This document shows, piece by piece, positions 1-24,626 of a DNA stretch of 24,626 bases (the stretch's first letter is position 1; the number at the start of each line of letters is the position of its first letter). The position numbers and the translations under genes are program-made. The DNA is taken from positions 1 through 24,626 of the forward strand of contig NEEC01000381.1 in NCBI GenBank assembly GCA_002189035.1, in the 5' to 3' direction. The notes below the pieces were generated by a model. That model saw only the letters and a program-made list of their open reading frames with translations. It was not told the DNA's origin and made no database searches. Source of the DNA: Utricularia gibba (taxonomy: Eukaryota > Streptophyta > Magnoliopsida > Lamiales > Lentibulariaceae).

Positions 1-150
1 AGAGTTAGTTGTACCGGCAAATAAAGTGATTATTTATTAACGTTCAGTTTTCGGGGCTGCCTACATGGTTTTTCAAGGAACAGCTTCTCGTTTTGTGGCG
101 CCAGTCTCGCTGGGAACTTGGTCCTTGACCCCGATTATGTATGGCTCATG
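1..150 (+). repeat. Partial satellite unit at the left window edge
   Basis: The window opens at consensus position 161, inside half B, and runs to the end of that unit. The copy reads TGTACCGGC, so it lacks both variable bases 174 and 176. It also reads GTGATTATTT where the consensus has GTGATGTATTT, has four G in the G-run and GGCGCCAG for GGCGGCCAG. No gene is present. Confidence 0.95.
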
Positions 151-3100
151 AGGTCAACCGGATGCAAATCGATTAAAAAAATGATGCCTTTGTTTAAATT
201 ACGATATCACGTGCACCCCACATGATTTTTTCAACAACTTACTTTATACTTGAGGAGGCGGTCTTGGGGTGCGGGACAAAGGTCAGGTTTGGCTTGCGCC
301 GAGAGTTAGTTGTAGCTCGGAAAATAAAGTGATGTATTTATTAACGTTCAGTTTTCGGGGGCTGCCTACATGGTTTTTCAAGAACAGCTTCTCGTTTTGT
401 GGCGGCCAGTCTCGCTGGGAACTTGGTCCTTGACCCCGATGTATGCTCATGAGGTCAACCGGATGCAAATCGATTAAAAAAATGATGCCTTTGTTTAAAT
501 TACGATATCACGTGCACCCCACATGATTTTTTCAACAACTTACTTTATACTTGGGAGGCGGTCTTGGGGTGCACCTAGAACGGACAAAGGTCAGGTTTGG
601 CTTGCGCCGAGAGTTAGTTGTAACTCGGCAAATAAAGTGATGTATTTATTAACGTTCAGTTTTCGGGGGCTGCCTACATGGTTTTTCAAGGAACAGCTTC
701 TCGTTTTGTGGCGGCCAGTCTCGCTGGGAACTTGGTCGACCCCGATTATGTATTGCTCATGAGGTCAACCGGATGCAAATCGATTAAAAAAAATGATGCC
801 TTTGTTTAAATTACGATATCACGTGCACCCCACATGATTTTTTCAACAACTTACTTTATACTTGTGGAGGCGGTCTTGGGGTGCACCTAGAACGGACAAA
901 GGTCAGGTTTGGCTTGCGCCGAGTTAGTTGTAGCTCGGCAAATAAAGTGATGTATTTATTAACGTTCAGTTTTCGGGGGCTGCCTACATGGTTTTTCAAG
1001 GAACAGCTTCTCTTTTGTGGCGGCCAGTCTCGCTGGGAACTTGGTCCTTGACCCCGATTATGTGGCTCATGAGGTCAACCGGATGCAAATCGATTAAAAA
1101 AAATGATGCCTTTGTTTAAATTACGATATCACGTGCACCCACATGATTTTTTCAACAACTTACTTTATACTTGAGGAGGCGGTCTTGGGGTGCACCTAGA
1201 ACGGGACAAAGGTCAGGTTTGGCTTGCGCCGAGAGTTAGTTGTAGCCGGCAAATAAAGTGATGTATTTATTAACGTTCAGTTTTCGGGGGCTGCCTACAT
1301 GGTTTTTCAAGGAACAGCTTCTCGTTTTGTGGCGGCCAGTCTCGCTGGGAACTTGGTCCTTGACCCCGATTCTTTGCTCATGAGGTCAACCGGATGAAAT
1401 CTTTGATTACGATATCACGTGCACCCACATGATTTTTCAACAACTTGCTTTATACTTGTGGTGGGGTGCACCTGGAACGGGACAAAGGTCAGGTTTGGCT
1501 TGCGCCGAGAGTTAGTTGTACACGGCAAATAAAGTGATGTATTTATTAACGTTCAGTTTTGGGGGCTGCCTACATGGTTTTTCAAGGAACAGCTTCTCGT
1601 TTTGTGGCGGCCAGTCTCGCTGGGAACTTGGTCCTTGACCCCGATTATGTATGCTCATGAGGTCAACCGGATGCAAATCGATTAAAAAATGATGCCTTTG
1701 TTTAAATTACGATATCACGTGCACCCCACATGATTTTTTCAACAACTTGCTTTATACTTGTGGAGGCGGTCTTGGGGTGCACCTGGAACGGGACAAAGGT
1801 CAGGTTTGGCTTGCGCCGAGAGTTAGTTGTAACACGGCAAATAAAGTGATGTATTTATTAACGTTCAGTTTTCGGGGCTGCCTACATGGTTTTTCAAGGA
1901 ACAGCTTCTCTTTTGTGGCGCCAGTCTCGCTGGGAACTTGGTCCTTGACCCCGATTATGTATGCTCATGAGGTCAACCGGATGCAAATCGATTAAAAAAA
2001 AATGATGCCTTTGTTTAAATTACGATATCACGTGCACCCCACATGATTTTTTCAACAACTTACTTTATACTTGAGGAGGCGGTCTTGGGTGCACCTAGAA
2101 CGGACAAAGGTCAGGTTTGGCTTGCGCCGAGAGTTAGTTGTAGCTCGGAAAATAAAGTGATATTTATTAACGTTCAGTTTTTGGGGGCTGCCTACATGGT
2201 TTTTCAAGGAACAGCTTCTCGTTTTGTGGCGGCCAGTCTCGCTGGGAACTTGGTCCTTGACCCCGATTATGTATTGCTCATGAGGTCAACCGGATGCAAA
2301 TCGATTAAAAAAAAATGTTTTACGATATCACGTGCACCCCACATGATTTTTTCAACAACTTACTTTATACTTGAGGAGGCGGTCTTGGGGTGCACCTAGA
2401 ACGGGACAAAGGTCAGGTTTGGCTTGCGCCGAGAGTTAGTTAGCTCGGAAAATAAAGATGTATTTATTAACGTTCAGTTTTGGGGGCTGCCTACATGGTT
2501 TTTCAAGGAACAGCTTCTCGTTTTGTGGCGGCCAGTCTCGCTGGGAACTTGGTCCTTGACCCCGATTATGTATGGCTCATGAGGTCAACCGGATGCAAAT
2601 CGATTAAAAAAATGATGCCTTTGTTTAAATTACGATATCACGTGCACCCCACATTTTTTCAACAACTTACTTTATACTTGAGGAGGCGGTCTTGGGGTGC
2701 AGAACGGGACAAAGGTCAGTTGGCTTGCGCCGAGAGTTAGTTGTAGCCGGCAAATAAAGTGATGTATTTATTAAACGTTCAGTTTTCGGGGGCTGCCTAC
2801 ATGGTTCAAGGAACAGCTTCTCGTTTTGTGGCGGCCAGTCTCGCTGGAACTTGGTCCTTGACCCGATTATGTATGGCTCATGAGGTCAACCGGATGCAAA
2901 TCGATTAAAAAAATGATGCCTTTGTTTAAATTACGATATCACGTGCACCCACATGATTTTTTCAACAACTTACTTTATACTTGGGAGGCGGTCTTGGGGT
3001 GCACCTAGAACGGGACAAAGGTCAGGTTTGGCTTGCGCCGAGAGTTAGTTGTAGCCGGCAAATAAAGTGATGTATTTATTAACGTTCAGTTTTCGGGGGC

Positions 3101-3194
3101 TGCCTACATGGTTTTTCAAGGAACAGCTTCTCGTTTTGTGGCGGCCAGTCTCGCTGGGAACTTGGTCCTTGACCCCGATTATGTATTGCTCATG
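151..3194 (+). repeat. Satellite units 1-10 (damaged left block)
   Basis: Units start at 151, 452, 762, 1072, 1383, 1660, 1970, 2283, 2582 and 2883, with a mean length of about 304 bp, the shortest block in the window. Unit 1 (301 bp) lacks nine bases at the CACCTAGAAC motif. Unit 2 lacks CTT in TCCTTGACC. Unit 5 is 277 bp and unit 8 is 299 bp, both with losses around the A-run. Unit 9 (301 bp) has several small losses. Units 5 and 6 belong to the T103/G127 variant group. No gene or unique sequence is seen. Confidence 0.95.
1383..1659 (+). repeat. Short satellite unit (277 bp), two internal losses
   Basis: The first loss, 24 bases in net, changes the A-run region to GATGAAATCTTTGATTACG. The second, nine bases, turns the GGAGGCGGTCTTGGGG region into TGTGGTGGGGTGC. 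The remaining difference is single-base losses at homopolymers and variable sites. The copy carries G91, T103, G127 and ACACGG, the same group as the unit that follows. Confidence 0.92.
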
Positions 3195-6100
3195 AGGTCA
3201 ACCGGATGCAAATCGATTAAAAAAATGATGCTTTGTTTAAATTACGATATCACGTGCACCCCACATGATTTTTTCAACAACTTACTTTATACTTGAGGAG
3301 GCGGTCTTGGGGTGCACCTAGAACGGACAAAGGTCAGGTTTGGCTTGCGCCGAGAGTTAGTTGTACTCGGCAAATAAAGTGATGTATTTATTAACGTTCA
3401 GTTTTCGGGGGCTGCCTACATGGTTTTTCAAGGAACAGCTTCTCGTTTTGTGGCGGCCAGTCTCGCTGGAACTTGGTCCTTGACCCCGATTATGTATGCT
3501 CATGAGGTCAACCGGATGCAAATCGATTAAAAAAAATGATGCCTTTGTTTAAATTACGATATCACGTGCACCCCACATGATTTTTTCAACAACTTACTTT
3601 ATACTTGTGGAGGCGGTCTTGGGGTGCACCTGGAACGGGACAAAGGTCAGGTTTGGCTTGCGCCGAGAGTTAGTTGTAACACGGCAAATAAAGTGATGTA
3701 TTTATTAACGTTCAGTTTTCGGGGCTGCCTACATGGTTTTTCAAGGAACAGCTTCTCGTTTTGTGGCGGCCAGTCTCGCTGGGAACTTGGTCCTTGACCC
3801 CGATTATGTATTGCTCATGAGGTCAACCGGATGCAAATGATTAAAAAATGATGCCTTTGTTTAAATTACGATATCACGTGCACCCCACATGATTTTTTCA
3901 ACAACTTACTTTATACTTGTGGAGCGGTCTTGGGGTGCACCTGGAACGGGACAAAGGTCAGGTTTGGCTTGCGCCGAGAGTTAGTTGTAACTCGGCAAAT
4001 AAAGTGATGTATTTATTAACGTTCAGTTTTGGGGGCTGCCTACATGGTTTTTCAAGGAACAGCTTCTCTTTTGTGGCGGCCAGTCTCGCTGGGAACTTGG
4101 TCCTTGACCCCGATTATGTATTGCTCATGAGGTCAACCGGATGCAAATGATTAAAAAAAATGATGCTTTGTTTAAATTACGATATCACGTGCACCCCACA
4201 TGATTTTTTCAACAACTTACTTTATACTTGAGGAGCGGTCTTGGGGTGCAAGAGAACGGGACAAAGGTCAGGTTTGGCTTGCGCCGAGAGTTAGTTGTAG
4301 CGGCAAATAAAGTGATGTATTTATTAACGTTCAGTTTTCGGGGGCTGCCTACATGGTTTTCAAGGAACAGCTTCTCGTTTTGTGGCGGCCAGTCTCGCTG
4401 GGAACTTGGTCCTTGACCCCGATTATGTATGCTCATGAGGTCAACCGGATGCAAATCGATTAAAAAAAATGATGCCTTTGTTTAAATTACGATATCACGT
4501 GCACCCACATGATTTTTTCAACAACTTACTTTATTTGAGGGCGGTCTTGGGGTGCACCTAGAACGGGACAAAGGTCAGGTTTGGCTTGCGCCGAGAGTTA
4601 GTTGTAGCTCGGAAAATAAAGTGATGTATTTATTAACGTTCAGTTTTCGGGGGCTGCCTACATGGTTTTTCAAGGAACAGCTTCTCGTTTTGTGGCGGCC
4701 AGTCTCGCTGGGAACTTGGTCCTTGACCCCGATTATGTATGGCTCATGAGGTCAACCGGATGGAAATCGATTAAAAAAATGATGCCTTTGTTTAAATTAC
4801 GATATCACGTGCACCCCACATGATTTTTTCAACAACTTATATACTTGAGGCGGTCTTGGGGTGCACCTAGAACGGGACAAAGGTCAGGTTTGGCTTGCGC
4901 CGAGAGTTAGTTGTAGCTCGGCAAATAAAGTGATGTATTTATTAACGTTCAGTTTTCGGGGCTGCCTACATGGTTTTTCAAGGAACAGCTTCTCGTTTTG
5001 TGGCGGCCAGTCTCGCTGGGAACTTGGTCCTTGACCCCGATTGTATGGCTCATGAGGTCAACCGGATGCAAATCGATTAAAAAAATGATGCCTTTGTTTA
5101 AATTACGATATCACGTGCACCCCACATGATTTTTTCAACAACTTACTTTATACTTGAGGAGGCGGTCTTGGGTGCACCTAGAACGGGACAAAGGTCAGGT
5201 TTGGCTTGCGCCGAGAGTAGTTGTAGCTCGGCAAATAAAGTGATGTATTTATTAACGTTCAGTTTTCGGGGCTGCCTACATGGTTTTTCAAGGAACAGCT
5301 TCTCGTTTTGTGGCGGCCAGTCTCGCTGGGAACTTGGTCCTTGACCCCGATTATGTATGGCTCATGAGGTCAACCGGATGGAAATCGATTAAAAAAATGA
5401 TGCCTTTCTTTAAATTACGATATCACGTGCACCCCACATGATTTTTCAACAACTTGCTTTATACTTGTGGAGGCGGTCTTGGGGTGCACCTAGAACGGGA
5501 CAAAGGTCAGGTTTGGCTTGCGCCGAGAGTTAGTTGTAACTCGGCAAATAAAGTGATGTATTTATTACGTTCAGTTTTCGGGGGCTGCCTACATGGTTTT
5601 TCAAGGAACAGCTTCTCGTTTTGTGGCGGCCAGTCTCGCTGGGAACTTGGTCCTTGACCCGATTATGTATGCTCATGAGGTCAACCGGATGCAAATTGAT
5701 TAAAAAAATGATGCCTTTGTTTAAATTACGATATCACGTGCACCCACATGATTTTTTCAACAACTTACTTTATACTTGAGGAGGCGGTCTTGGGGTGCAC
5801 CTAGAACGGGACAAAGGTCAGGTTTGGCTTGCGCCGAGAGTTAGTTGTAACTCGGCAAATAAAGTGATGTATTTATTAACGTTCAGTTTTCGGGGCTGCC
5901 TACATGGTTTTTCAAGGAACAGCTTCTCTTTTGTGGCGGCCAGTCTCGCTGGGAACTTGGTCCTTGACCCCGATTATGTATTGCTCATGAGGTCAACCGG
6001 ATGCAAATCGATTAAAAAAAATGATGCCTTTGTTTAAATTACGATATCACGTGCACCCCACATGATTTTTTCAACAACTTACTTTATACTTGAGGAGGCG

Positions 6101-6302
6101 GTCTTGGGGTGCAAAGAACGGGACAAAGGTCAGGTTTGGCTTGCGCCGAGAGTTAGTTGTAGCTCGGCAAATAAAGTGATGTATTTATTAACGTTCAGTT
6201 TTCGGGGGCTGCCTACATGGTTTTTCAAGGAACAGCTTCTCGTTTTGTGGCGGCCAGTCTCGCTGGGAACTTGGTCCTTGACCCCGATTATGTATGCTCA
6301 TG
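3195..6302 (+). repeat. Satellite units 11-20
   Basis: Units start at 3195, 3505, 3820, 4130, 4438, 4749, 5055, 5367, 5678 and 5990 (mean about 311 bp). Units 12 and 13 carry T103 and G127. Unit 14 has the variant GTGCAAGAGAACGGG and the shortened TGTAGCGGC. Unit 16 has the rare G15 and a shortened TTATATACTTG region. Unit 18 combines G15, C42, G91 and T103. Unit 19 has T20 in place of C20. Small deletions remain frequent. No gene is seen. Confidence 0.95.
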
Positions 6303-9300
6303 AGGTCAACCGGATGCAAATCGATTAAAAAATGATGCCTTTGTTTAAATTACGATATCACGTGCACCCCACATGATTTTTTCAACAACTTACTTTATAC
6401 TTGAGGAGGCGGTCTTGGGGTGCACCTGGAACGGGACAAAGGTCAGGTTTGGCTTGCGCCGAGAGTTAGTTGTAGCTCGGCAAATAAAGTGATGTATTTA
6501 TTAACGTTCAGTTTTCGGGGGCTGCCTACATGGTTTTTCAAGAACAGCTTCTCGTTTTGTGGCGGCCAGTCTCGCTGGGAACTTGGTCCTTGACCCCGAT
6601 TCTGTATGGCTCATGAGGTCAACCGGATGCAAATCGATTAAAAAAATGATGCCTTTGTTTAAATTACGATATCACGTGCACCCCACATGATTTTTTCAAC
6701 AACTTACTTTATACTTGAGGAGGCGGTCTTGGGGTGCACTAGAACGGGACAAAGGTCAGTTTGGCTTGCGCCGAGTTAGTTGTAGCGGCAAATAAAGTGA
6801 TGTATTTATTAACGTTCAGTTTTGGGGCTGCCTACATGGTTTTTCAAGGAACAGCTTCTCGTTTTGTGGCGGCCAGTCTCGCTGGGAACTTGGTCCTTGA
6901 CCCCGATTATGTATGGCTCATGAGGTCAACCGGATGAAATCGATTAAAAAAATGATGCCTTTGTTTAAATTACGATATCACGTGCACCCCACATGATTTT
7001 TTCAACAACTTACTTTATACTTGAGGAGGCGGTCTTGGGTGCACCTAGAACGGGACAAAGGTCAGGTTTGGCTTGCGCCGAGAGTTAGTTGTACTCGGAA
7101 AATAAAGTGATGTATTTATTAACGTTCAGTTTTCGGGGGCTGCCTACATGGTTTTTCAAGGAACAGCTTCTCGTTTTGTGGCGGCCAGTCTCGCTGGGAA
7201 CTTGGTCCTTGACCCCGATTATGTATGGCTCATGAGGTCAACCGGATGCAAATCGATTAAAAAAATGATGCCTTTGTTTAAATTACGATATCACGTGCAC
7301 CCCACATGATTTTTTCAACAACTTACTTTATACTTGAGGAGGCGGTCTTGGGGTGCACCTAGAACGGGACAAAGGTCAGGTTTGGCTTGCGCCGAGAGTT
7401 AGTTGTAGCTCGGCAAATAAAGTGATGTATTTATTAACGTTCAGTTTTCGGGGGCTGCCTACATGGTTTTTCAAGGAACAGCTTCTCGTTTTGTGGCGGC
7501 CAGTCTCGCTGGGAACTTGGTCCTTGACCCCGATTCTGTATGGCTCATGAGGTCAACCGGATGCAAATCGATTAAAAAAATGATGCCTTTGTTTAAATTA
7601 CGATATCACGTGCACCCACATGATTTTTTCAACAACTTACTTTATACTTGAGGAGGCGGTCTTGGGGTGCACCTAGAACGGGACAAAGGTCAGGTTTGGC
7701 TTGCGCCGAGAGTTAGTTGTAGCTCGGCAAATAAAGTGATGTATTTATTAACGTTCAGTTTTCGGGGGCTGCCTACATGGTTTTTCAAGGAACAGCTTCT
7801 CGTTTGTGGCGGCCAGTCTCGCTGGGAACTTGGTCCTTGACCCCGATTATGTATGGCTCATGAGGTCAACCGGATGCAAATCGATTAAAAAAATGATGCC
7901 TTTTTAAATTACGATATCACGTGCACCCACATGATTTTTTCAACAACTTACTTTATACTTGTGGAGGCGGTCTTGGGGTGCACCTAGAACGGGACAAAGG
8001 TCAGGTTTGGCTTGCGCCGAGAGTTAGTTGTAGCTCGGCAAATAAAGTGATGTATTTATTAACGTTCAGTTTTCGGGGGCTGCCTACATGGTTTTTCAAG
8101 GAACAGCTTCTCGTTTTGTGGCGGCCAGTCTCGCTGGGAACTTGGTCCTTGACCCCGATTATGTATTGCTCATGAGGTCAACCGGATGCAAATCGATTAA
8201 AAAAATGATGCCTTTGTTTAAATTACGATATCACGTGCACCCCACATGATTTTTTCAACAACTTGCTTTATACTTGAGGAGGCGGTCTTGGGGTGCACCT
8301 AGAACGGGACAAAGGTCAGGTTTGGCTTGCGCCGAGAGTTAGTTGTAGCTCGGAAATAAAGTGATGTATTTATTAACGTTCAGTTTTCGGGGGCTGCCTA
8401 CATGGTTTTTCAAGGAACAGCTTCTCGTTTTTGTGGCGGCCAGTCTCGCTGGGAACTTGGTCCTTGACCCCGATTATGTATGCTCATGAGGTCAACCGGA
8501 TGCAAATCGATTAAAAAAATGATGCCTTTGTTTAAATTACGATATCACGTGCACCCCACATGATTTTTTCAACAACTTACTTTATACTTGGAGGCGGTCT
8601 TGGGGTGCACCTAGAACGGGACAAAGGTCAGGTTTGGCTTGCGCCGAGAGTTAGTTGTAGCTCGGCAAATAAAGTGATGTATTTATTAACGTTCAGTTTT
8701 CGGGGCTGCCTACATGGTTTTTCAAGGAACAGCTTCTCTTTTGTGGCGGCCAGTCTCGCTGGGAACTTGGTCCTTGACCCCGATTATGTATTGCTCATGA
8801 GGTCAACCGGATGCAAAATTAAAAAAATGATGCCTTTGTTTAAATTACGATATCACGTGCACCCCACATGATTTTTTCAACAACTTACTTTATACTTGAG
8901 GAGGCGGTCTTGGGGTGCACCTAGAACGGGACAAAGGTCAGGTTTGGCTTGCGCCGAGAGTTAGTTGTAGCTCGGCAAATAAAGTGATGTATTTATTAAC
9001 GTTCAGTTTTCGGGGCTGCCTACATGGTTTTTCAAGGAACAGCTTCTCGTTTTGTGGCGGCCAGTCTCGCTGGGAACTTGGTCCTTGACCCCGATTATGT
9101 ATGCTCATGAGGTCAACCGGATGCAAATCGATTAAAAAAAATGATGCCTTTGTTTAAATTACGATATCACGTGCACCCCACATGATTTTTTCAACAACTT
9201 ACTTTATACTTGAGGAGGCGGTCTTGGGGTGCACCTAGAACGGGACAAAGGTCAGGTTTGGCTTGCGCCGAGAGTTAGTTGTAGCTCGGAAAATAAAGTG

Positions 9301-9424
9301 ATGTATTTATTAACGTTCAGTTTTTGGGGCTGCCTACATGGTTTTTCAAGGAACAGCTTCTCGTTTTGTGGCGGCCAGTCTCGCTGGGAACTTGGTCCTT
9401 GACCCCGATTATGTATGGCTCATG
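6303..9424 (+). repeat. Satellite units 21-30
   Basis: Units start at 6303, 6616, 6923, 7235, 7550, 7863, 8175, 8489, 8800 and 9110 (mean about 312 bp). Units 21 and 24 carry C302 in place of A302. Unit 22 (307 bp) lacks several bases in half B. Unit 29 reads GCAAAATTAAA, having lost the CG of AATCGATT. Unit 30 has T215 and A180. The block is more regular than the two before it, and no gene is seen. Confidence 0.95.
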
Positions 9425-12400
9425 AGGTCAACCGGATGCAAATCGATTAAAAAAAAATGATGCCTTTGTTTAAATTACGATATCACGTGCACCCCACATG
9501 ATTTTTTCAACAACTTACTTTATACTTGAGGAGGCGGTCTTGGGGTGCACCTAGAACGGGACAAAGGTCAGGTTTGGCTTGCGCCGAGAGTTAGTTGTAG
9601 CTCGGCAAATAAAGTGATGTATTTATTAACGTTCAGTTTTCGGGGGCTGCCTACATGGTTTTTCAAGGAACAGCTTCTCGTTTTGTGGCGGCCAGTCTCG
9701 CTGGGAACTTGGTCCTTGACCCCGATTATGTATGCTCATGAGGTCAACCGGATGCAAATCGATTAAAAAAAATGATGCCTTTGTTTTAAATTACGATATC
9801 ACGTGCACCCCACATGATTTTTTCAACAACTTACTTTATACTTGAGGAGGCGGTCTTGGGGTGCAAGAACGGACAAAGGTCAGGTTTGGCTTGCGCCGAG
9901 AGTTAGTTGTAGCGGCAAATAAAGTGATGTATTTATTAACGTTCAGTTTTCGGGGGCTGCCTACATGGTTTTTCAAGGAACAGCTTCTCGTTTTGTGGCG
10001 GCCAGTCTCGCTGGGAACTTGGTCCTTGACCCCGATTATGTATGGCTCATGAGGTCAACCGGATGCAAATCGATTAAAAAAAATGATGCCTTTTTTAAAT
10101 TACGATATCACGTGCACCCCACATGATTTTTTCAACAACTTACTTTATACTTGGGAGGCGGTCTTGGGTGCACCTAGAACGGGACAAAGGTCAGGTTTGG
10201 CTTGCGCCGAGAGTTAGTTGTAGCTCGGCAAATAAAGTGATGTATTTATTAACGTTCAGTTTTCGGGGCTGCCTACATGGTTTTTCAAGGAACAGCTTCT
10301 CGTTTTGTGGCGGCCAGTCTCGCTGGGAACTTGGTCCTTGACCCCGATTATGTATTGCTCATGAGGTCAACCGGATGCAAATCGATTAAAAAAATGATGC
10401 TTTGTTTTAAATTACGATATCACGTGCACCCCACATGATTTTTTCAACAACTTACTTTATACTTGAGGAGGCGGTCTTGGGGTGCACCTAGAACGGGACA
10501 AAGGTCAGGTTTGGCTTGCGCCGAGAGTTAGTTGTAACTCGGCAAATAAAGTGATGTATTTATTAACGTTCAGTTTTCGGGGCTGCCTACATGGTTTTTC
10601 AAGGAACAGCTTCTCGTTTTGTGGCGGCCAGTCTCGCTGGGAACTTGGTCCTTGACCCCGATTATGTATTGCTCATGAGGTCAACCGGATGCAAATGATT
10701 AAAAAAAATGATGCCTTTGTTTAAATTACGATATCACGTGCACCCCACATGATTTTTTCAACAACTTACTTTATACTTGAGGAGGCGGTCTTGGGGTGCA
10801 CCTAGAACGGGACAAAGGTCAGGTTTGGCTTGCGCCGAGAGTTAGTTGTAGCTCGGCAAATAAAGTGATGTATTTATTAACGTTCAGTTTTCGGGGGCTG
10901 CCTACATGGTTTTTCAAGGAACAGCTTCTCGTTTTGTGGCGGCCAGTCTCGCTGGGAACTTGGTCCTTGACCCCGATTATGTATGGCTCATGAGGTCAAC
11001 CGGATGCAAATCGATTAAAAAAAATGATGCCTTTGTTTAAATTACGATATCACGTGCACCCCACATGATTTTTTCAACAACTTACTTTATACTTGAGGAG
11101 GCGGTCTTGGGGTGCACCTAGAACGGGACAAAGGTCAGGTTTGGCTTGCGCCGAGAGTTAGTTGTAGCTCGGCAAATAAAGTGATGTATTTATTAACGTT
11201 CAGTTTTGGGGGCTGCCTACATGGTTTTTCAAGGAACAGCTTCTCGTTTTGTGGCGGCCAGTCTCGCTGGGAACTTGGTCCTTGACCCCGATTCTGTATG
11301 GCTCATGAGGTCAACCGGATGCAAATCGATTAAAAAAATGATGCCTTTGTTTAAATTACGATATCACGTGCACCCCACATGATTTTTTCAACAACTTACT
11401 TTATACTTGAGGAGGCGGTCTTGGGGTGCACCTAGAACGGGACAAAGGTCAGGTTTGGCTTGCGCCGAGAGTTAGTTGTAGCTCGGCAAATAAAGTGATG
11501 TATTTATTAACGTTCAGTTTTCGGGGGCTGCCTACATGGTTTTTCAAGGAACAGCTTCTCGTTTTGTGGCGGCCAGTCTCGCTGGGAACTTGGTCCTTGA
11601 CCCCGATTATGTATTGCTCATGAGGTCAACCGGATGCAAATCGATTAAAAAAATGATGCCTTTGTTTAAATTACGATATCACGTGCACCCCACATGATTT
11701 TTTCAACAACTTACTTTATACTTGAGGAGGCGGTCTTGGGTGCACCTGAACGGGACAAAGGTCAGGTTTGGCTTGCGCCGAGAGTTAGTTGTAGCTCGGC
11801 AAATAAAGTGATGTATTTATTAACGTTCAGTTTTCGGGGGCTGCCTACATGGTTTTTCAAGGAACAGCTTCTCTTTTGTGGCGGCCAGTCTCGCTGGGAA
11901 CTTGGTCCTTGACCCCGATTATGTATTGCTCATGAGGTCAACCGGATGCAAATCGATTAAAAAAAAATGATGCCTTTGTTTAAATTACGATATCACGTGC
12001 ACCCCACATGATTTTTTCAACAACTTACTTTATACTTGAGGAGGCGGTCTTGGGGTGCACCTAGAACGGGACAAAGGTCAGGTTTGGCTTGCGCCGAGAG
12101 TTAGTTGTAGCTCGGCAAATAAAGTGATGTATTTATTAACGTTCAGTTTTCGGGGGCTGCCTACATGGTTTTTCAAGGAACAGCTTCTCGTTTTGTGGCG
12201 GCCAGTCTCGCTGGGAACTTGGTCCTTGACCCCGATTATGTATTGCTCATGAGGTCAACCGGATGCAAATCGATTAAAAAAAATGATGCCTTTGTTTAAA
12301 TTACGATATCACGTGCACCCACATGATTTTTTCAACAACTTACTTTATACTTGAGGAGGCGGTCTTGGGGTGCAAGAGAACCGGACAAAGGTCAGTTTGG

Positions 12401-12562: not shown

Positions 12563-15500
12563 AGGTCAACCGGATGAAATCGATTAAAGAAAATGATGCC
12601 TTTGTTTAAATTACGATATCACGTGCACCCCACATGATTTTTTCAACAACTTACTTTATACTTGAGGAGGCGGTCTTGGGGTGCACCTAGAACGGGACAA
12701 AGGTCAGGTTTTGGCTTGCGCCGAGAGTTAGTTGTAGCTCGGCAAATAAAGTGATGTATTTATTAACGTTCAGTTTTCGGGGCTGCCTACATGGTTTTTC
12801 AAGGAACAGCTTCTCGTTTTGTGGCGGCCAGTCTCGCTGGAACTTGGTCCTTGACCCCGATTCTGTATGCTCATGAGGTCAACCGGATGCAAATCGATTA
12901 AAAAAATGATGCCTTTGTTTAAATTACGATATCACGTGCACCCCACATGATTTTTTCAACAACTTACTTTATACTTGAGGAGGCGGTCTTGGGGTGCACT
13001 AGAACGGGACAAAGGTCAGGTTTGGCTTGCGCCGAGAGTTAGTTGTAGCTCGGCAAATAAAGTGATGTATTTATTAACGTTCAGTTTTCGGGGGCTGCCT
13101 ACATGGTTTTTCAAGGAACAGCTTCTCGTTTTGTGGCGGCCAGTCTCGCTGGGAACTTGGTCCTTGACCCCGATTATGTATGGCTCATGAGGTCAACCGG
13201 ATGGAAATCGATTAAAAAAATGATGCCTTTGTTTAAATTACGATATCACGTGCACCCCACATGATTTTTTCAACAACTTACTTTATACTTGAGGAGGCGG
13301 TCTTGGGGTGCACCTAGAACGGGACAAAGGTCAGGTTTGGCTTGCGCCGAGAGTTAGTTGTAGCTCGGAAAATAAAGTGATGTATTTATTAACGTTCAGT
13401 TTTCGGGGCTGCCTACATGGTTTTTCAAGGAACAGCTTCTCGTTTTGTGGCGGCCAGTCTCGCTGGGAACTTGGTCCTTGACCCCGATTGTATGCTCATG
13501 AGGTCAACCGGATGAAATCGATTAAAGAAAATGATGCCTTTGTTAAATTACGATATCACGTGCACCCCACATGATTTTTTCAACAACTTACTTTATACTT
13601 GAGGAGGCGGTCTTGGGGTGCACCTAGAACGGGACAAAGGTCAGGTTTGGCTTGCGCCGAGAGTTAGTTGTAGCTCGGCAAATAAAGTGATGTATTTATT
13701 AACGTTCAGTTTTCGGGGCTGCCTACATGGTTTTTCAAGGAACAGCTTCTCGTTTTGGCGGCCAGTCTCGCTGGGAACTTGGTCCTTGACCCCGATTCTG
13801 TATGGCTCATGAGGTCAACCGGATGCAAATCGATTAAAAAAATGATGCCTTTGTTTAAATTACGATATCACGTGCACCCCACATGATTTTTTCAACAACT
13901 TACTTTATACTTGAGGAGGCGGTCTTGGGTGCACCTAGAACGGGACAAAGGTCAGGTTTGGCTTGCGCCGAGAGTTAGTTGTAGCTCGGAAAATAAAGTG
14001 ATGTATTTATTAACGTTCAGTTTTCGGGGCTGCCTACATGGTTTTTCAAGGAACAGCTTCTCGTTTTGTGGCGGCCAGTCTCGCTGGGAACTTGGTCCTT
14101 GACCCCGATTATGTATTGCTCATGAGGTCAACCGGATGCAAATCGATTAAAAAATGATGCCTTTGTTTAAATTACGATATCACGTGCACCCCACATGATT
14201 TTTTCAACAACTTACTTTATACTTGAGGAGGCGGTCTTGGGGTGCACCTAGAACGGACAAAGGTCAGGTTTGGCTTGCGCCGAGAGTTAGTTGTAGCTCG
14301 GAAAATAAAGTGATGTATTTATTAACGTTCAGTTTTCGGGGGCTGCCTACATGGTTTTTCAAGGAACAGCTTCTCGTTTTGTGGCGGCCAGTCTCGCTGG
14401 GAACTTGGTCCTTGACCCCGATTATGTATTGCTCATGAGGTCAACCGGATGCAAATTGATTAAAAAAAATGATGCCTTTCTTTAAATTACGATATCACGT
14501 GCACCCCACATGATTTTTTCAACAACTTACTTTATACTTGTGGAGGCGGTCTTGGGTGCACCTAGAACGGGACAAAGGTCAGGTTTGGCTTGCGCCGAGA
14601 GTTAGTTGTAGCTCGGCAAATAAAGTGATGTATTTATTAACGTTCAGTTTTCGGGGGCTGCCTACATGGTTTTTCAAGGAACAGCTTCTCGTTTTGTGGC
14701 GGCCAGTCTCGCTGGGAACTTGGTCCTTGACCCCGATTATGTATGGCTCATGAGGTCAACCGGATGCAAATCGATTAAAGAAAATGATGCCTTTGTTTAA
14801 ATTACGATATCACGTGCACCCCACATGATTTTTTCAACAACTTACTTTATACTTGAGGAGGCGGTCTTGGGGTGCACCTAGAACGGGACAAAGGTCAGGT
14901 TTGGCTTGCGCCGAGAGTTAGTTGTAGCTCGGCAAATAAAGTGATGTATTTATTAACGTTCAGTTTTCGGGGGCTGCCTACATGGTTTTTCAAGGAACAG
15001 CTTCTCGTTTTGTGGCGGCCAGTCTCGCTGGGAACTTGGTCCTTGACCCCGATTCTGTATGGCTCATGAGGTCAACCGGATGCAAATCGATTAAAAAAAT
15101 GATGCCTTTGTTTAAATTACGATATCACGTGCACCCCACATGATTTTTTCAACAACTACTTTATACTTGAGGAGGCGGTCTTGGGGTGCACCTAGAACGG
15201 GACAAAGGTCAGGTTTGGCTTGCGCCGAGAGTTAGTTGTAGCTCGGAAATAAAGTGATGTATTTATTAACGTTCAGTTTTCGGGGGCTGCCTACATGGTT
15301 TTTCAAGGAACAGCTTCTCGTTTTGTGGCGGCCAGTCTCGCTGGGAACTTGGTCCTTGACCCCGATTCTGTATGGCTCATGAGGTCAACCGGATGGAAAT
15401 CGATTAAAGAAAATGATGCCTTTCTTTAAATTACGATATCACGTGCACCCCACATGATTTTTTCAACAACTTACTTTATACTTGAGGAGGCGGTCTTGGG

Positions 15501-15696
15501 GTGCACCTAGAACGGGACAAAGGTCAGGTTTGGCTTGCGCCGAGAGTTAGTTGTAGCTCGGAAAATAAAGTGATGTATTTATTAACGTTCAGTTTTCGGG
15601 GGCTGCCTACATGGTTTTTCAAGGAACAGCTTCTCGTTTGTGGCGGCCAGTCTCGCTGGGAACTTGGTCCTTGACCCCGATTATGTATTGCTCATG
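12563..15696 (+). repeat. Satellite units 41-50, with a local G-in-A-run subgroup
   Basis: Units start at 12563, 12876, 13190, 13501, 13812, 14125, 14438, 14753, 15069 and 15382 (mean about 313 bp). Units 41, 44, 48 and 50 have AAAGAAAA where all others have an uninterrupted A-run, with the G at 12589, 13527, 14780 and 15409. Units 41, 44, 48 and 49 also carry C302. The rare G15 occurs in units 43 and 50 and is missing as a dropped base in 41 and 44. No gene is seen. Confidence 0.95.
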
Positions 15697-15958
15697 AGGT
15701 CAACCGGATGCAAATTGATTAAAAAAAATGATGCAACAACTTACTTTATACTTGAGGAGGCGGTCTTGGGCACAGGAACGGGACAAAGGTTTTGGCTTGC
15801 GCCGAGAGTTAGTTGTAGCCGGCAAATAAAGTGATGTATTTATTAACGTTCAGTTTTCGGGGGCTGCCTACATGGTTTTTCAAGGAACAGCTTCTCGTTT
15901 TGTGGCGGCCAGTCTCGCTGGGAACTTGGTCCTTGACCCCGATTATGTATGGCTCATG
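15697..15958 (+). repeat. Shortest satellite unit (262 bp), internally deleted
   Basis: Forty-five bases are absent between GATG and CAACAAC, which removes the GATATC/CACGTG/GTGCAC cluster and the T6 run. One base (C) could be placed on either side of the junction. Two further four-base losses follow: CTTGGGCACAGGAAC for CTTGGGGTGCACCTAGAAC, and AAAGGTTTTGGC for the form with CAGG. TGTAGCCGGC lacks base 176. With an A8 run these changes account exactly for the 262-bp length. Confidence 0.93.
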
Positions 15959-18765
15959 AGGTCAACCGGATGCAAATCGATTAAAAAAAATGATGCCTTT
16001 TTTAAATTACGATATCACGTGCACCCCACATGATTTTTCAACAACTTACTTTATACTTGGGAGGCGGTCTTGGGGTGCACCTAGAACGGGACAAAGGTCA
16101 GGTTTGGCTTGCGCCGAGAGTTAGTTGTAGCGGCAAAATAAAGTGATGTATTTATTAACGTTCAGTTTTCGGGGGCTGCCTACATGGTTTTTCAAGGAAC
16201 AGCTTCTCGTTTTGTGGCGGCCAGTCTCGCTGGGAACTTGGTCCTTGACCCCCGATTATGTATTGCTCATGAGGTCAACCGGATGCAAATGATTAAAAAA
16301 ATGATGCCTTTGTTTAAATTACGATATCACGTGCACCCCACATGATTTTTTCAACAACTTACTTTATACTTGTGGAGGCGGTCTTGGGTGCACCTGGAAC
16401 GGGACAAAGGTCAGGTTTGGCTTGCGCCGAGAGTTAGTTGTAACACGGCAAATAAAGTGATGTATTTATTAACGTTCAGTTTTCGGGGGCTGCCTACATG
16501 GTTTTTCAAGGAACAGCTTCTCTTTTTGTGGCGGCCAGTCTCGCTGGGAACTTGGTCCTTGACCCCGATTATGTATGCTCATGAGGTCAACCGGATGCAA
16601 ATCGATTAAAAAAAATGATGCCTTTGTTTAAATTACGATATCACGTGCACCCCACATGATTTTTTCAACAACTTACTTTATACTTGAGGAGGCGGTCTTG
16701 GGTGCACCTGAACGGGACAAAGGTCAGGTTTGGCTTGCGCCGAGAGTTAGTTGTAGGCAAATAAAGTGATGTATTTATTAACGTTCAGTTTTCGGGGCTG
16801 CCTACATGGTTTTTCAAGAACAGCTTCTCGTTTTGTGGCGGCCAGTCTCGCTGGAACTTGGTCCTTGACCCCGATTATGTATGCTCATGAGGTCAACCGG
16901 ATGCAAATCGATTAAAAAAAATGATGCCTTTGTTTAAATTACGATATCACGTGCACCCCACATGATTTTTTCAACAACTTACTTTATACTTGAGGAGGCG
17001 GTCTTGGGGTGCACCTGAACGGGACAAAGGTCAGGTTTGGCTTGCGCCGAGAGTTAGTTGTAGCCGGCAAATAAAGTGATGTATTTATTAACGTTCAGTT
17101 TTCGGGGGCTGCCTACATGGTTTTTCAAGGAACAGCTTCTCGTTTTGTGGCGGCCAGTCTCGCTGGGAACTTGGTCCTTGACCCCGATTATGTATGCTCA
17201 TGAGGTCAACCGGATGCAAATCGATTAAAAAAAATGATGCCTTTGTTTAAATTACGATATCACGTGCACCCCACATGATTTTTTCAACAACTTACTTTAT
17301 ACTTGAGGAGGCGGTCTTGGGGTGCACCTAGAACGGGACAAAGGTCAGGTTTGGCTTGCGCCGAGAGTTAGTTGTAGCCGGCAAATAAAGTGTGTATTTA
17401 TTAACGTTCAGTTTTCGGGGGCTGCCTACATGGTTTTTCAAGGAACAGCTTCTCGTTTTGTGGCGGCCAGTCTCGCTGGGAACTTGGTCCTTGACCCCGA
17501 TTATGTATGGCTCATGAGGTCAACCGGATGCAAATCGATTAAAAAAATGATGCCTTTGTTTAAATTACGATATCACGTGCACCCCACATGATTTTTTCAA
17601 CAACTTACTTTATACTGAGGAGGCGGTCTTGGGGTGCACCTAGAACGGGACAAAGGTCAGGTTGGCTTGCGCCGAGAGTTAGTTGTAGCTCGGCAAATAA
17701 AGTGATGTATTTATTAACGTTCAGTTTTCGGGGGCTGCCTACATGGTTTTTCAAGGAACAGCTTCTCGTTTTGTGGCGGCCAGTCTCGCTGGGAACTTGG
17801 TCCTTGACCCCGATTATGTATGGCTCATGAGGTCAACCGGATGCAAATCGATTAAAAAAATGATGCCTTTGTTTAAATTACGATATCACGTGCACCCCAC
17901 ATGATTTTTTCAACAACTTACTTTATACTTGAGGAGGCGGTCTTGGGGTGCACCTAGAACGGGACAAAGGTCAGGTTTGGCTTGCGCGAGAGTTAGTTGT
18001 AGCTCGGCAAATAAAGTGATGTATTTATTAACGTTCAGTTTTCGGGGGCTGCCTACATGGTTTTTCAAGGAACAGCTTCTCGTTTTGTGGCGGCCAGTCT
18101 CGCTGGGAACTTGGTCCTTGACCCCGATTATGTATGGCTCATGAGGTCAACCGGATGCAAATCGATTAAAAAAATGATGCCTTTTTTAAATTACGATATC
18201 ACGTGCACCCACATGATTTTTTCAACAACTTACTTTATACTTGAGGAGGCGGTCTTGGGTGCACCTAGAACGGGACAAAGGTCAGGTTTGGCTTGCGCCG
18301 AGAGTTAGTTGTAGCTCGGCAAATAAAGTGATGTATTTATTAACGTTCAGTTTTCGGGGGCTGCCTACATGGTTTTTCAAGGAACAGCTTCTCGTTTTGT
18401 GGCGGCCAGTCTCGCTGGGAACTTGGTCCTTGACCCGATTATGTATGCTCATGAGGTCAACCGGATGCAAATCGATTAAAAAAATGATGCCTTTGTTTAA
18501 ATTACGATATCACGTGCACCCCACATATTTTTTCAACAACTTACTTTATACTTGAGGAGGCGGTCTTGGGGTGCACCTAGAACGGGACAAGGTCAGGTTT
18601 GGCTTGCGCGAGAGTTAGTTGTAGCTCGGCAAATAAAGTGATGTATTTATTAACGTTCAGTTTTCGGGGGCTGCCTACATGGTTTTTCAAGGAACAGCTT
18701 CTCGTTTTGTGGCGGCCAGTCTCGCTGGGAACTTGGTCCTTGACCCCGATTATGTATTGCTCATG
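15959..18765 (+). repeat. Satellite units 52-60
   Basis: Units start at 15959, 16272, 16584, 16890, 17203, 17517, 17830, 18144 and 18454 (mean about 312 bp). Unit 53 belongs to the T103/G127/A174/A176 group and is the only copy I found with T at 254. Units 54 and 55 read CCTGAAC, lacking variable base 127. Units 58 and 60 read GCGCGAGAG with one C lost. No gene is seen. Confidence 0.95.
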
Positions 18766-19383
18766 AGGTCAACCGGATGCAAATCGATTAAAAAAAAATG
18801 ATGCCTTTGTTTAAATTACGATATCACGTGCACCCCACATGATTTTTTCAACAACTTGCTTTATACTTGTGGAGGCGGTCTTGGGTGCACCTGGAACGGG
18901 ACAAAGGTCAGGTTTGGCTTGCGCCGAGAGTTAGTTGTAGCACGGCAAATAAAGTGATGTATTTATTAACGTTCAGTTTTCGGGGGCTGCCTACATGGTT
19001 TTTCAAGGAACAGCTTCTCGTTTTGTGGCGGCCAGTCTCGCTGGGAACTTGGTCCTTGACCCCGATTATGTATGCTCATGAGGTCAACCGGATGCAAATC
19101 GATTAAAAAAAATGATGCCTTTGTTTAAATTACGATATCACGTGCACCCCACATGATTTTTTCAACAACTTACTTTATACTTGAGGAGGCGGTCTTGGGG
19201 CACCTAGAACGGGACAAAGGTCAGGTTTGGCTTGGCCGAGAGTTAGTTGTAGCCGGCAAATAAAGTGATGTATTTATTAACGTTCAGTTTTGGGGGCTGC
19301 CTACATGGTTTTTCAAGGAACAGCTTCTCGTTTTGTGGCGGCCAGTCTCGCTGGGAACTTGGTCCTTGACCCCGATTATGTAT

Positions 19384-19540
19384 GGCTCATGAGGTCAACC
19401 GGATGCAAATCGATTAAAAAAATGATGCCTTTGTTTAAATTACGATATCACGTGCACCCCACATGATTTTTTCAACAACTTACTTTATACTTGAGGAGGC
19501 GGTCTTGGGGTGCACCTAGAACGGGACAAAGGTCAGGTTT
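19384..19540 (+). repeat. Half-unit A of the dimeric satellite (example copy)
   Basis: This ~157-bp segment resembles the next ~158 bp (half-unit B). Shared blocks in the same order are GGCT at the start, GCAAAT, TGATG, ACATG followed by a T-run and CAA, then GTCT. The 50 bases at 19423-19472 match 19580-19629 at 32 positions without gaps. Half A alone holds the A7 run, the palindrome cluster and both GTGCAC sites. That the halves descend from one ancestral ~157-bp repeat is inference from this collinear similarity. Confidence 0.72.
19444..19457. other. Overlapping palindrome cluster with CACGTG core (once per unit)
   Basis: Fourteen bases hold GATATC, CACGTG and GTGCAC, each sharing bases with the next. 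The eight bases ATCACGTG fit RTCACRTG, the yeast centromere element I consensus bound by Cbf1, and CACGTG is also the general E-box core of bHLH proteins. The cluster recurs in nearly every unit; the clear losses are in the units starting at 15697 and 19707. Binding by any protein is speculation; the motif match and its conservation are seen. Confidence 0.45.
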
Positions 19541-19698
19541 GGCTTGCGCCGAGAGTTAGTTGTAGCTCGGCAAATAAAGTGATGTATTTATTAACGTTCA
19601 GTTTTCGGGGGCTGCCTACATGGTTTTTCAAGGAACAGCTTCTCGTTTTGTGGCGGCCAGTCTCGCTGGGAACTTGGTCCTTGACCCCGATTATGTAT
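19541..19698 (+). repeat. Half-unit B of the dimeric satellite (example copy)
   Basis: This half is collinear with half A at an offset of 157-158 bp. GCAAAT sits eight bases further along than expected, balanced by an eight-base shorter spacer before TGATG, so one compensating gap pair is enough to align the two. Half B lacks the long A-run and the GATATC/CACGTG cluster, and instead has AAATAAA and the G5 run. Identity to half A looks close to one half overall and is highest between TGATG and the T-run. Confidence 0.7.
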
Positions 19699-21894
19699 GG
19701 CTCATGAGGTCAACCGGATGCAAATCGATTAAAAAAATGATGCCTTTGTTTAAATTACGATATCACGCACCCCACATGATTTTTCAACAACTTACTTTAT
19801 ACTTGAGGAGGCGGTCTTGGGGGCACCTAGAACGGACAAAGGTCAGGTTTGGCTTGCGCCGAGAGTTAGTTGTAGCTCGGCAAATAAAGTGATGTATTTA
19901 TTAACGTTCAGTTTTCGGGGCTGCCTACATGGTTTTTCAAGGAACAGCTTCTCGTTTTGTGGCGGCCAGTCTCGCTGGGAACTTGGTCCTTGACCCCGAT
20001 TATGTATTGCTCATGAGGTCAACCGGATGCAAATCGATTAAAAAAAATGATGCCTTTGTTTAAATTACGATATCACGTGCACCCCACATGATTTTTTCAA
20101 CAACTTACTTTATACTTGAGGAGGCGGTCTTGGGTGCACCTAGAACGGGACAAAGGTCAGGTTTGGCTTGCGCCGAGAGTTAGTTGTAGCTCGGAAAATA
20201 AAGTGATGTATTTATTAACGTTCAGTTTTCGGGGGCTGCCTACATGGTTTTTCAAGGAACAGCTTCTCGTTTTGTGGCGGCCAGTCTCGCTGGGAACTTG
20301 GTCCTTGACCCCGATTATGTATGGCTCATGAGGTCAACCGGATGCAAATCGATTAAAAAAATGATGCCTTTGTTTAAATTACGATATCACGTGCACCCAC
20401 ATGATTTTTTCAACAACTTACTTTATACTTGAGGAGGCGGTCTTGGGGTGCACCTAGAACGGGACAAAGGTCAGGTTTGGCTTGCGCCGAGAGTTAGTTG
20501 TAGCTCGGCAAATAAAGTGATGTATTTATTAACGTTCAGTTTTCGGGGCTGCCTACATGGTTTTTCAAGGAACAGCTTCTCGTTTTGTGGCGGCCAGTCT
20601 CGCTGGGAACTTGGTCCTTGACCCCGATTATGTATGGCTCATGAGGTCAACCGGATGCAAATCGATTAAAAAAATGATGCCTTTGTTTAAATTACGATAT
20701 CACGTGCACCCCACATGATTTTTTCAACAACTTACTTTATACTTGAGGAGGCGGTCTTGGGTGCACCTAGAACGGGACAAAGGTCAGGTTTGGCTTGCGC
20801 CGAGAGTTAGTTGTAGCTCGGCAAATAAAGTGATGTATTTATTAACGTTCAGTTTTCGGGGCTGCCTACATGGTTTTTCAAGGAACAGCTTCTCGTTTTG
20901 TGGCGGCCAGTCTCGCTGGGAACTTGGTCCTTGACCCCGATTATGTATTGCTCATGAGGTCAACCGGATGCAAATCGATTAAAAAAATGATGCCTTTGTT
21001 TAAATTACGATATCACGTGCACCCCACATGATTTTTTCAACAACTTACTTTATACTTGAGGAGGCGGTCTTGGGTGCACCTAACGGGACAAAGGTCAGGT
21101 TTGGCTTGCGCCGAGAGTTAGTTGTAGCTCGGCAAATAAAGTGATGTATTTATTAACGTTCAGTTTTCGGGGGCTGCCTACATGGTTTTTCAAGGAACAG
21201 CTTCTCGTTTTGTGGCGGCCAGTCTCGCTGGGAACTTGGTCCTTGACCCCGATTATGTATGCTCATGAGGTCAACCGGATGCAAATCGATTAAAAAAATG
21301 ATGCCTTTGTTTAAATTACGATATCACGTGCACCCACATGATTTTTTCAACAACTTACTTTATACTTGAGGAGGCGGTCTTGGGGTGCACCTGGAACGGG
21401 ACAAAGGTCAGGTTTGGCTTGCGCCGAGAGTTAGTTGTAGCTCGGCAAATAAAGTGATGTATTTATTAACGTTCAGTTTTCGGGGGCTGCCTACATGGTT
21501 TTTCAAGGAACAGCTTCTCGTTTTGTGGCGGCCAGTCTCGCTGGGAACTTGGTCCTTGACCCCGATTCTGTATGGCTCATGAGGTCAACCGGATGCAAAT
21601 CGATTAAAAAAATGATGCCTTTGTTTAAATTACGATATCACGTGCACCCACATGATTTTTTCAACAACTTACTTTATACTTGAGGAGGCGGTCTTGGGGT
21701 GCACCTAGAACGGGACAAAGGTCAGGTTTGGCTTGCGCCGAGAGTTAGTTGTAGCTCGGCAAATAAAGTGATGTATTTATTAACGTTCAGTTTTCGGGGG
21801 CTGCCTACATGGTTTTTCAAGGAACAGCTTCTCGTTTTGTGGCGGCCAGTCTCGCTGGGAACTTGGTCCTTGACCCCGATTATGTATGCTCATG

Positions 21895-24393
21895 AGGTCA
21901 ACCGGATGCAAATCGATTAAAAAAATGATGCCTTTTTTAAATTACGATATCACGTGCACCCCACATGATTTTTTCAACAACTTACTTTATACTTGAGGAG
22001 GCGGTCTTGGGGTGCACCTGGAACGGGACAAAGGTCAGGTTTGGCTTGCGCCGAGAGTTAGTTGTAGCTCGGCAAATAAAGTGATGTATTTATTAACGTT
22101 CAGTTTTCGGGGGCTGCCTACATGGTTTTTCAAGGAACAGCTTCTCGTTTTTGTGGCGGCCAGTCTCGCTGGGAACTTGGTCCTTGACCCGATTATGTAT
22201 GGCTCATGAGGTCAACCGGATGCAAATCGATTAAAAAAATGATGCCTTTGTTTAAATTACGATATCACGTGCACCCCACATGATTTTTTCAACAACTTAC
22301 TTTATACTTGAGGAGGCGGTCTTGGGGTGCACCTAGAACGGGACAAAGGTCAGGTTTGGCTTGCGCCGAGAGTTAGTTGTAGCTCGGAAAATAAAGTGAT
22401 GTATTTATTAACGTTCAGTTTTGGGGGCTGCCTACATGGTTTTTCAAGGAACAGCTTCTCGTTTTGTGGCGGCCAGTCTCGCTGGGAACTTGGTCCTTGA
22501 CCCCGATTCTGTATGGCTCATGAGGTCAACCGGATGCAAATCGATTAAAAAAATGATGCCTTTGTTTAAATTACGATATCACGTGCACCCCACATGATTT
22601 TTTCAACAACTTACTTTATACTTGAGGAGGCGGTCTTGGGGTGCACCTAGAACGGGACAAAGGTCAGGTTTGGCTTGCGCCGAGAGTTAGTTGTAGCTCG
22701 GCAAATAAAGTGATGTATTTATTAACGTTCAGTTTTCGGGGGCTGCCTACATGGTTTTTCAAGGAACAGCTTCTCGTTTTGTGGCGGCCAGTCTCGCTGG
22801 GAACTTGGTCCTTGACCCCGATTATGTATGGCTCATGAGGTCAACCGGATGCAAATCGATTAAAAAAAATGATGCTTTGTTTAAATTACGATATCACGTG
22901 CACCCCACATGATTTTTTCAACAACTTACTTTATACTTGAGGAGGCGGTCTTGGGGCACCTAGAACGGGACAAAGGTTTTGGCTTGCGCCGAGAGTTAGT
23001 TGTAGCCGGCAAATAAAGTGATGTATTTATTAACGTTCAGTTTTCGGGGGCTGCCTACATGGTTTTTCAAGGAACAGCTTCTCGTTTTGTGGCGGCCAGT
23101 CTCGCTGGGAACTTGGTCCTTGACCCCGATTATGTATGGCTCATGAGGTCAACCGGATGCAAATCGATTAAAAAAATGATGCCTTTGTTTAAATTACGAT
23201 ATCACGTGCACCCCACATGATTTTTTCAACAACTTACTTTATACTTGAGGAGGCGGTCTTGGGGTGCACCTAGAACGGGACAAAGGTCAGGTTTGGCTTG
23301 CGCCGAGAGTTAGTTGTAGCTCGGCAAATAAAGTGATGTATTTATTAACGTTCAGTTTTCGGGGGCTGCCTACATGGTTTTTCAAGGAACAGCTTCTCGT
23401 TTTGTGGCGGCCAGTCTCGCTGGGAACTTGGTCCTTGACCCCGATTATGTATGCTCATGAGGTCAACCGGATGCAAATCGATTAAAATGATGCCTTTGTT
23501 TAAATTACGATATCACGTGCACCCCACATGATTTTTTCAACAACTTGCTTTATACTTGTGGAGGCGGTCTTGGGGTGCACCTGGAACGGACAAAGGTCAG
23601 GTTTGGCTTGCGCCGAGAGTTAGTTGTAGCCGGCAAATAAAGTGATGTATTTATTAACGTTCAGTTTTCGGGGGCTGCCTACATGGTTTTTCAAGGAACA
23701 GCTTCTCGTTTTGTGGCGGCCAGTCTCGCTGGGAACTTGGTCCTTGACCCCGATTATGTATGCTCATGAGGTCAACCGGATGCAAATCGATTAAAAAAAA
23801 TGATGCCTTTGTTTAAATTACGATATCACGTGCACCCCACATGATTTTTTCAACAACTTACTTTATACTTGAGGAGGCGGTCTTGGGGTGCACCTAGAAC
23901 GGGACAAAGGTCAGGTTTGGCTTGCGCCGAGAGTTAGTTGTAGCCGGCAAATAAAGTGATGTATTTATTAACGTTCAGTTTTCGGGGCTGCCTACATGGT
24001 TTTTCAAGGAACAGCTTCTCGTTTTGTGGCGGCCAGTCTCGCTGGAACTTGGTCCTTGACCCCGATTATGTATGGCTCATGAGGTCAACCGGATGCAAAT
24101 CGATTAAAAAAATGATGCCTTTGTTTAAATTACGATATCACGTGCACCCCACATGATTTTTTCAACAACTTACTTTATACTTGAGGAGGCGGTCTTGGGT
24201 GCACCTAGAACGGGACAAAGGTCAGGTTTGGCTTGCGCCGAGAGTTAGTTGTAGCTCGGCAAATAAAGTGATGTATTTATTAACGTTCAGTTTTCGGGGG
24301 CTGCCTACATGGTTTTTCAAGGAACAGCTTCTCGTTTTGTGGCGGCCAGTCTCGCTGGAACTTGGTCCTTGACCCGATTCTGTATGGCTCATG
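21895..24393 (+). repeat. Satellite units 71-78
   Basis: Units start at 21895, 22209, 22523, 22838, 23146, 23460, 23769 and 24082 (mean about 312 bp). Unit 73 is identical to the reference. Unit 74 shares the CAGG loss, a GGGGCACC form and TGTAGCCGG with unit 51. Unit 76 has only four A in the A-run and carries G91, T103 and G127. No gene is seen. Confidence 0.95.
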
Positions 24394-24626
24394 AGGTCAA
24401 CCGGATGGAAATCGATTAAAAAAATGATGCCTTTGTTTAAATTACGATATCACGTGCACCCCACATGATTTTTTTCAACAACTTACTTTATACTTGAGGA
24501 GGCGGTCTTGGGTGCACCTAGAACGGGACAAAGGTCAGGTTTGGCTTGCGCCGAGAGTTAGTTGTAGCCGGCAAATAAAGTGATGTATTTATTAACGTTC
24601 AGTTTTCGGGGCTGCCTACATGGTTT
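24394..24626 (+). repeat. Partial satellite unit at the right window edge
   Basis: The final 233 bases reach consensus position 235, just after TACATGGTTT, so the array continues beyond the window. The copy carries G15, a T7 run where most have T6, and TGTAGCCGG lacking base 176. Confidence 0.95.

Follow-up and report, generated by a model that had tools for sequence, protein, structure and literature searches.

Single-base losses from a 315-bp satellite array of Utricularia gibba: a probable product of consensus calling over mixed repeat copies

Contig NEEC01000381.1 (C473) of the Utricularia gibba assembly GCA_002189035.1 was analyzed over its full length of 24,626 nucleotides, hereafter referred to as the window. 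It consists of a satellite array whose units frequently lack single bases, and the origin of these losses is the subject of this work. Head-to-tail arrays present on many contigs are characteristic of plant satellite DNA. The array shares with such DNA a 315-bp monomer repeated head to tail, its occurrence on many contigs and a copy number in the thousands, and nothing about it stood out except the losses. In the window 79 anchors delimit 78 intervals, 76 of which are 290–330 bp long. The large-scale features are:

1..24626, + strand: whole contig C473, head-to-tail satellite with a 315-bp unit and no flanking unique DNA
1293..1567, + strand: interval of 275 bp with several multi-base losses, excluded from unit counts
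15605..15865, + strand: interval of 261 bp, excluded from unit counts

A sequence-only reading of the window had described seven two-base sites at which a third state, with just the variable base missing, is found. All seven motif triplets are present. The unit positions that it listed lie 10–176 bases ahead of motifs that do exist. One example of each missing state, with consensus columns numbered along the unit, is given below:

442..448, + strand: TATGCTC, column 86 (G/T) lacking its base; G matches the right and T the left neighbour, 21 in the window
6933..6940, + strand: GATGAAAT, column 108 (C/G) lacking its base; G matches the left neighbour
3835..3842, + strand: AAATGATT, column 113 (C/T) lacking its base; T matches the left neighbour
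10090..10096, + strand: CTTTTTT, column 135 (G/C, flanked by T runs) lacking its base; T is a third state in other contigs
11745..11751, + strand: CCTGAAC, column 220 (A/G) lacking its base; G matches the right neighbour
1242..1249, + strand: GTAGCCGG, column 269 (T/A, with C on either side) lacking its base; the simulation described below fails here
8351..8357, + strand: CGGAAAT, column 273 (C/A) lacking its base; A matches the run to its right

Missing-state contexts of the array include TATGCTC, GTTTTGGGG, CGGAAAT and CCTGAAC. Counts of the first base, the second base and the missing state in the window were 69/5/4 for GATG[C/G]AAAT (missing at 1393, 6933, 12573 and 13511, the first of which had been overlooked), 70/3/4 for AAAT[C/T]GATT (3835, 4145, 10693 and 16287), 67/3/4 for CTTT[G/C]TTT (10090, 15997, 18181 and 21932), 56/10/3 for CCT[A/G]GAAC (11745, 16707 and 17014) and 64/12/2 for CGG[C/A]AAAT (8351 and 15244). 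The missing form of GTAGC[T/A]CGG occurs 11 times, the number reported previously. For TAT[G/T]GCTC the 21 missing cases were recovered exactly, while the alleles number 36 G and 20 T rather than 37 and 21.

The central claim of that reading, that deletions prefer variable sites, was borne out when units were aligned to the consensus and tested column by column. The test was limited to non-homopolymer columns (runs of length one), and the window set comprised 76 of the 78 intervals, two being dropped by length. When variability was judged within the window, 11 of 145 columns received 31 of 48 single-base deletions (Fisher p=2.3e-7; permutation p=5e-5, the lowest value attainable with 20,000 shuffles). 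When it was judged independently in nine other contigs, 14 of 145 columns accounted for 43 of the 48 window deletions. The same test applied to the nine contigs themselves placed 220 of 261 single-base deletions on 12 of 145 columns; here 301 of 310 units were aligned, 49 intervals having been dropped by length and 9 units by identity below 93%. The statement that almost every two-base site is affected needs two exceptions. In the window, columns 80 and 184 show no single-base losses: column 80 carries 9 C among 76 units and is missing only within longer gaps (2 units), and column 184 carries 5 G.

An extended set of 483 units was used to establish which columns lose bases (86 intervals were dropped by length and 18 of 501 units were not retained). 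Its 13 variable columns bear 460 single-base losses. At eight of them (32, 86, 108, 113, 220, 267, 273 and 308) one allele is identical to an adjacent base; all eight are affected, they constitute 8 of the 11 affected columns, and they account for 359 of the losses. Among the other five, columns 135, 196 and 269 lose bases although neither main allele matches a neighbour. These three columns have identical flanks, and 9, 6 and 10 units, respectively, carry a third state there that equals the neighbour. Column 80 is the most variable of all (211 A, 252 C) and its flanks are also identical, yet it is nearly spared, with 4 single-base losses and 15 in longer gaps; identical flanks alone, therefore, do not predict loss. 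Column 184 (429 A, 50 G) shows 2 single-base losses and 2 in longer gaps. Column 269, with 32 single-base losses, is among the most frequently affected for its variability.

The size of the effect was assessed on the assumption that missing units descend from the allele that matches its neighbour. Relative to that allele, the loss was 0.20–0.29 at columns 86, 108, 113, 220 and 267, 0.62 at column 308 and 0.78 at column 32 (based on just 9 units). Counterpart runs, identical in base and length but invariant, are available for seven of the eight columns (five runs were left out as polymorphic) and lose a base at a rate of only 0.0018–0.025. At column 273 the loss was 0.27, and there is no invariant counterpart run. 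Invariant single columns show a loss of about 0.001. The state in which both alleles are present is rare: 16 cases in total, 11 of them at column 273. Missing versus both-alleles counts were 82 and 0 at column 86, 127 and 2 at column 308, 17 and 2 at column 220, and 51 and 11 at column 273.

Linked sites provide information on the background of the missing units. Fourteen site pairs could be tested, a fifteenth being without losses. In nine of the 14 the frequency of the linked allele in missing units lies between those of the two resolved classes. Among the clearest cases are column 86 judged by C80 (G 0.72, T 0.02, missing 0.28) and column 196 judged by G220 (A 0.09, T 0.71, missing 0.26); column 196 with 184 is also clear. 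Loss increased with local variation across contigs only in a test within individual sites (p=0.013).

Losses from homopolymers form a second class. Runs of three or more bases lose 0.80 single bases per window unit, compared to 0.84 at variable sites, and CCCC and GGGG, which carry no substitutions, lack a base in 14–15% of units. The 5S ribosomal RNA (rRNA) gene arrays of the same assembly served as a control. In 35 units and 319 columns there were four single-column losses, and homopolymers often lacked a base (CCCCCC in as many as 13 of 35 units). Only one run was polymorphic: CCCCC within the 5S gene showed 11 T and 8 losses. These arrays, which vary little between copies, thus show homopolymer losses but hardly any others. 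Homopolymer losses occur inside the 5S rRNA gene itself, at CCCCC and GGG (L027–L030).

We conclude that the single-base losses are very probably consensus errors, made when noisy long reads of different satellite copies were merged. The losses fall mostly at columns with an allele confusable with its neighbour and, in addition, at homopolymers, chiefly those of G and C. Reads carrying one or the other allele would align differently, the minority base being placed at the far end of the neighbouring run. The consensus graph may then decide independently to drop the base at one position and to add none at the other, so that the shorter path wins. Later polishing would be unable to repair the losses, since a contig made entirely of satellite offers reads no unique placement. 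Consensus calling over mixed copies, one of the two mechanisms originally proposed, remains the best explanation; a gap emitted at every split column and the removal of ambiguity letters are not supported. If the losses are consensus errors, much of the spread of unit lengths is artefactual, as had been suspected: the 483 units contain 1370 deletion events against 257 insertions, with 1196 substitutions.

A consensus of this kind was simulated with a simplified graph procedure of our own applied to noisy mixed reads. Its outline, though not the details of gap handling and scoring, follows the Canu paper (PMC5411767). With 50/50 mixtures (480 runs) the eight neighbour-equal sites lost 0.060–0.135 and column 135 lost 0.09, compared to 0.025 at column 80, 0.021 at 196, 0.008 at 269 and 0.002 at 184. 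The third state T seen at column 135 in other contigs was also produced. Raising the deletion error to 7% (240 runs) gave 0.10–0.30 at neighbour-equal sites and 0.14 at column 135, versus 0.05 at column 80 and 0.02 at column 184. Losses changed little at 12x coverage (400 runs) and were similar with linked haplotypes (560 runs). When a neighbour-equal third allele was supplied (240 runs), columns 135, 196 and 269 lost 0.25, 0.15 and 0.18, respectively.

A number of results weigh against the explanation by consensus error, and the simulation supplies many of them. Both-alleles states are too common in it (36 of 560 at column 86, against none in the contigs). With the minor allele at 25% (320 runs), losses at all 13 sites fall to 0–0.031, so near-even local mixing is required. 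Column 196 is under-predicted, and column 269 reaches only 0.004–0.037 compared to the 32 of 483 observed; supplying a C allele there yields C in 141 of 240 runs, compared to 10 of 483 units in the contigs. Homopolymer losses are not reproduced (0.0018 at CCCC and GGGG). Over the 13 sites, simulated and observed losses per heterozygosity correlate without significance (Spearman 0.45, p=0.12); the coefficient rises to 0.70 (p=0.012) only without column 269, a removal decided after its failure. A likelihood-type consensus chose a gap in 1 of 416 runs, and such a consensus was rejected as the only cause.

The contigs themselves add to these difficulties. The neighbour rule is incomplete: 8 of 8 neighbour-equal columns and 3 of 5 others are affected, a difference expected by chance in 10 of 78 cases (about 0.13, calculated by hand) and not significant, and losses per heterozygosity overlap between the two groups. 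Five of the 14 linked pairs are not intermediate. The missing class stands at 0.00 for column 267 with 269 and with 196 (5 and 6 units) and for 113 with 135, and exceeds both resolved classes for 273 with 308 (0.45) and 308 with 273 (0.60). Losses show no clustering in certain units (p=0.41). The number of losses in a contig does not track its mean heterozygosity (Spearman −0.31, p=0.38); contig C232 is variable with few losses and C175 the reverse. The missing state of column 308 is found in 65% of units in C86 and in 0% in C232. A variant of the mechanism in which some units are mixed and others clean was rejected, as no overdispersion was detected.

The first alternative to be weighed is that real deletion alleles have spread through the satellite by unequal exchange, the missing state being a true third allele at each site. 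We regard this as unlikely, although several observations fit it. The contigs differ in the frequency of the missing state, as at column 308, and missing units at columns 308 and 273 have a background of their own, outside both alleles. The consensus model fails to account for column 269, where missing units resemble the common background; the losses at this column may reflect a true deletion allele or some other cause. Real alleles would, however, require separate deletions at 11 of the 13 variable columns with few elsewhere, and the loss rates far exceed those of comparable invariant runs. Adjacent units share the missing state barely beyond chance (lowest p=0.044, at column 308). This test has little power, since substitution alleles are mostly unshared by adjacent units too (only C80, p=0.020).

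The second alternative, in which ambiguity letters were removed or a per-column vote yielded a gap at any split, would account for the concentration of losses at variable columns, and is very improbable. Under it losses should follow variability, whereas context matters instead: column 80 is the most variable and column 184 is comparable to others, and both are nearly spared, which leaves the idea unsupported. It also leaves aside the losses from substitution-free CCCC and GGGG, the multi-base losses and a scrambled stretch. Apart from N, no ambiguity code of the International Union of Pure and Applied Chemistry (IUPAC) occurs in the loci examined: the window is made up solely of A, C, G and T, the satellite loci L001–L014 contain no N, and of the 9620 N over all these loci 9500 lie in 5S stretches. 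A further reading, in which heteroduplexes arise by exchange between satellite copies, a mismatch beside an identical base is resolved by a strand slip that drops the base, and sites such as columns 80 and 184 convert cleanly, would make the losses real; we give it very little weight.

Replication slippage, by which the neighbour-matching allele lengthens a run that then sheds a base, would fit the presence of a run-making allele at 8 of 11 affected columns, but is scarcely plausible given that invariant runs of equal base and length lose 0.2–2.5% compared to 20–78%. Hypermutable columns that gain substitutions and deletions alike would place both kinds of change together, as observed, and are the most improbable cause, since nearly all changes at columns 80 and 184 are substitutions and invariant single columns hardly lose bases at all.

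The losses may be compared with known assembly errors. In long-read assemblies, according to the available passages of PMC8812927, homopolymer-length errors persist in repeats, where read alignment is unreliable. The unrepaired homopolymer losses found here resemble them, while the other class, which follows variation between copies, is not described in those passages. A further likeness is to the directed-graph consensus of pbdagcon and falcon_sense, as outlined in the Canu paper: this is the type simulated, and most affected and spared sites were reproduced. The simulation differs in being a simplified rewrite.

The source assembly comprises 100.09 Mb in 516 contigs, of which C1–C4 measure 8.5, 6.2, 5.3 and 3.8 Mb and C451 at least 6.4 Mb. 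A full rbcL frame on a 172-kb contig is present, as are the 5S arrays. In two publications, the U. gibba genome is described as having 18 contigs above 1 Mb, including four putatively entire chromosomes (PMC8333044), and as a PacBio genome assembled with HGAP at 88x into 581 contigs (PMC5793159). The latter total disagrees with the 516 counted here. We infer that the window probably derives from a PacBio assembly, platform and assembler both being deduced. Several contig sizes are round numbers (C222 25000, C224 35000, C229 10000, C1 8500000).

An exact 26-mer of the satellite unit gave 2305 + 2263 (4568) matches across the assembly, corresponding to thousands of copies. Among the matches listed, those on C7 are mostly spaced about 625 bp apart and those on C8 often about 1.2 kb apart, a pattern suggestive of two-unit and four-unit higher-order arrangements of the satellite. 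The forward matches listed start on C7, so that none would lie forward on C1–C6 if they are given in contig order. Putative centromeres of U. gibba are described as free of satellite repeats in PMC8333044. Unique flanks were not found in the parts covered of 10 satellite contigs (the window, C175, C232 and C325 entire, six others partly). No locus represented twice by overlapping contigs was found among the stretches compared, the best alignments of at least 1200 bases all being less than 99% identical. An Rfam search with window positions 1–3000 returned no matches at E up to 1. No published description of the satellite or of the deletion pattern was found in the literature searched, which is not proof of absence.

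Other irregularities were seen in related contigs. C175 contains a stretch that is scrambled where inspected letter by letter (L006 7600–10000), and satellite matches are patchy, with unmatched pieces, in C175, C278 and C279 (L006 5900–10000, L007 1–3050, L009 4750–6000, L039 and L040). The scramble and the patchy stretches suggest outright consensus failure in places.

Most likely, then, the losses are not a real feature of the DNA but an ordinary assembly artefact, and a useful warning about quality. A column with three states, an allele that matches its neighbour and scarcely any both-alleles state should be suspected, while some variable columns, such as 80 and 184 here, appear reliable. 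If this is true, variants of satellite unit length and single-base indels in assemblies of noisy reads would not be readable as biology.

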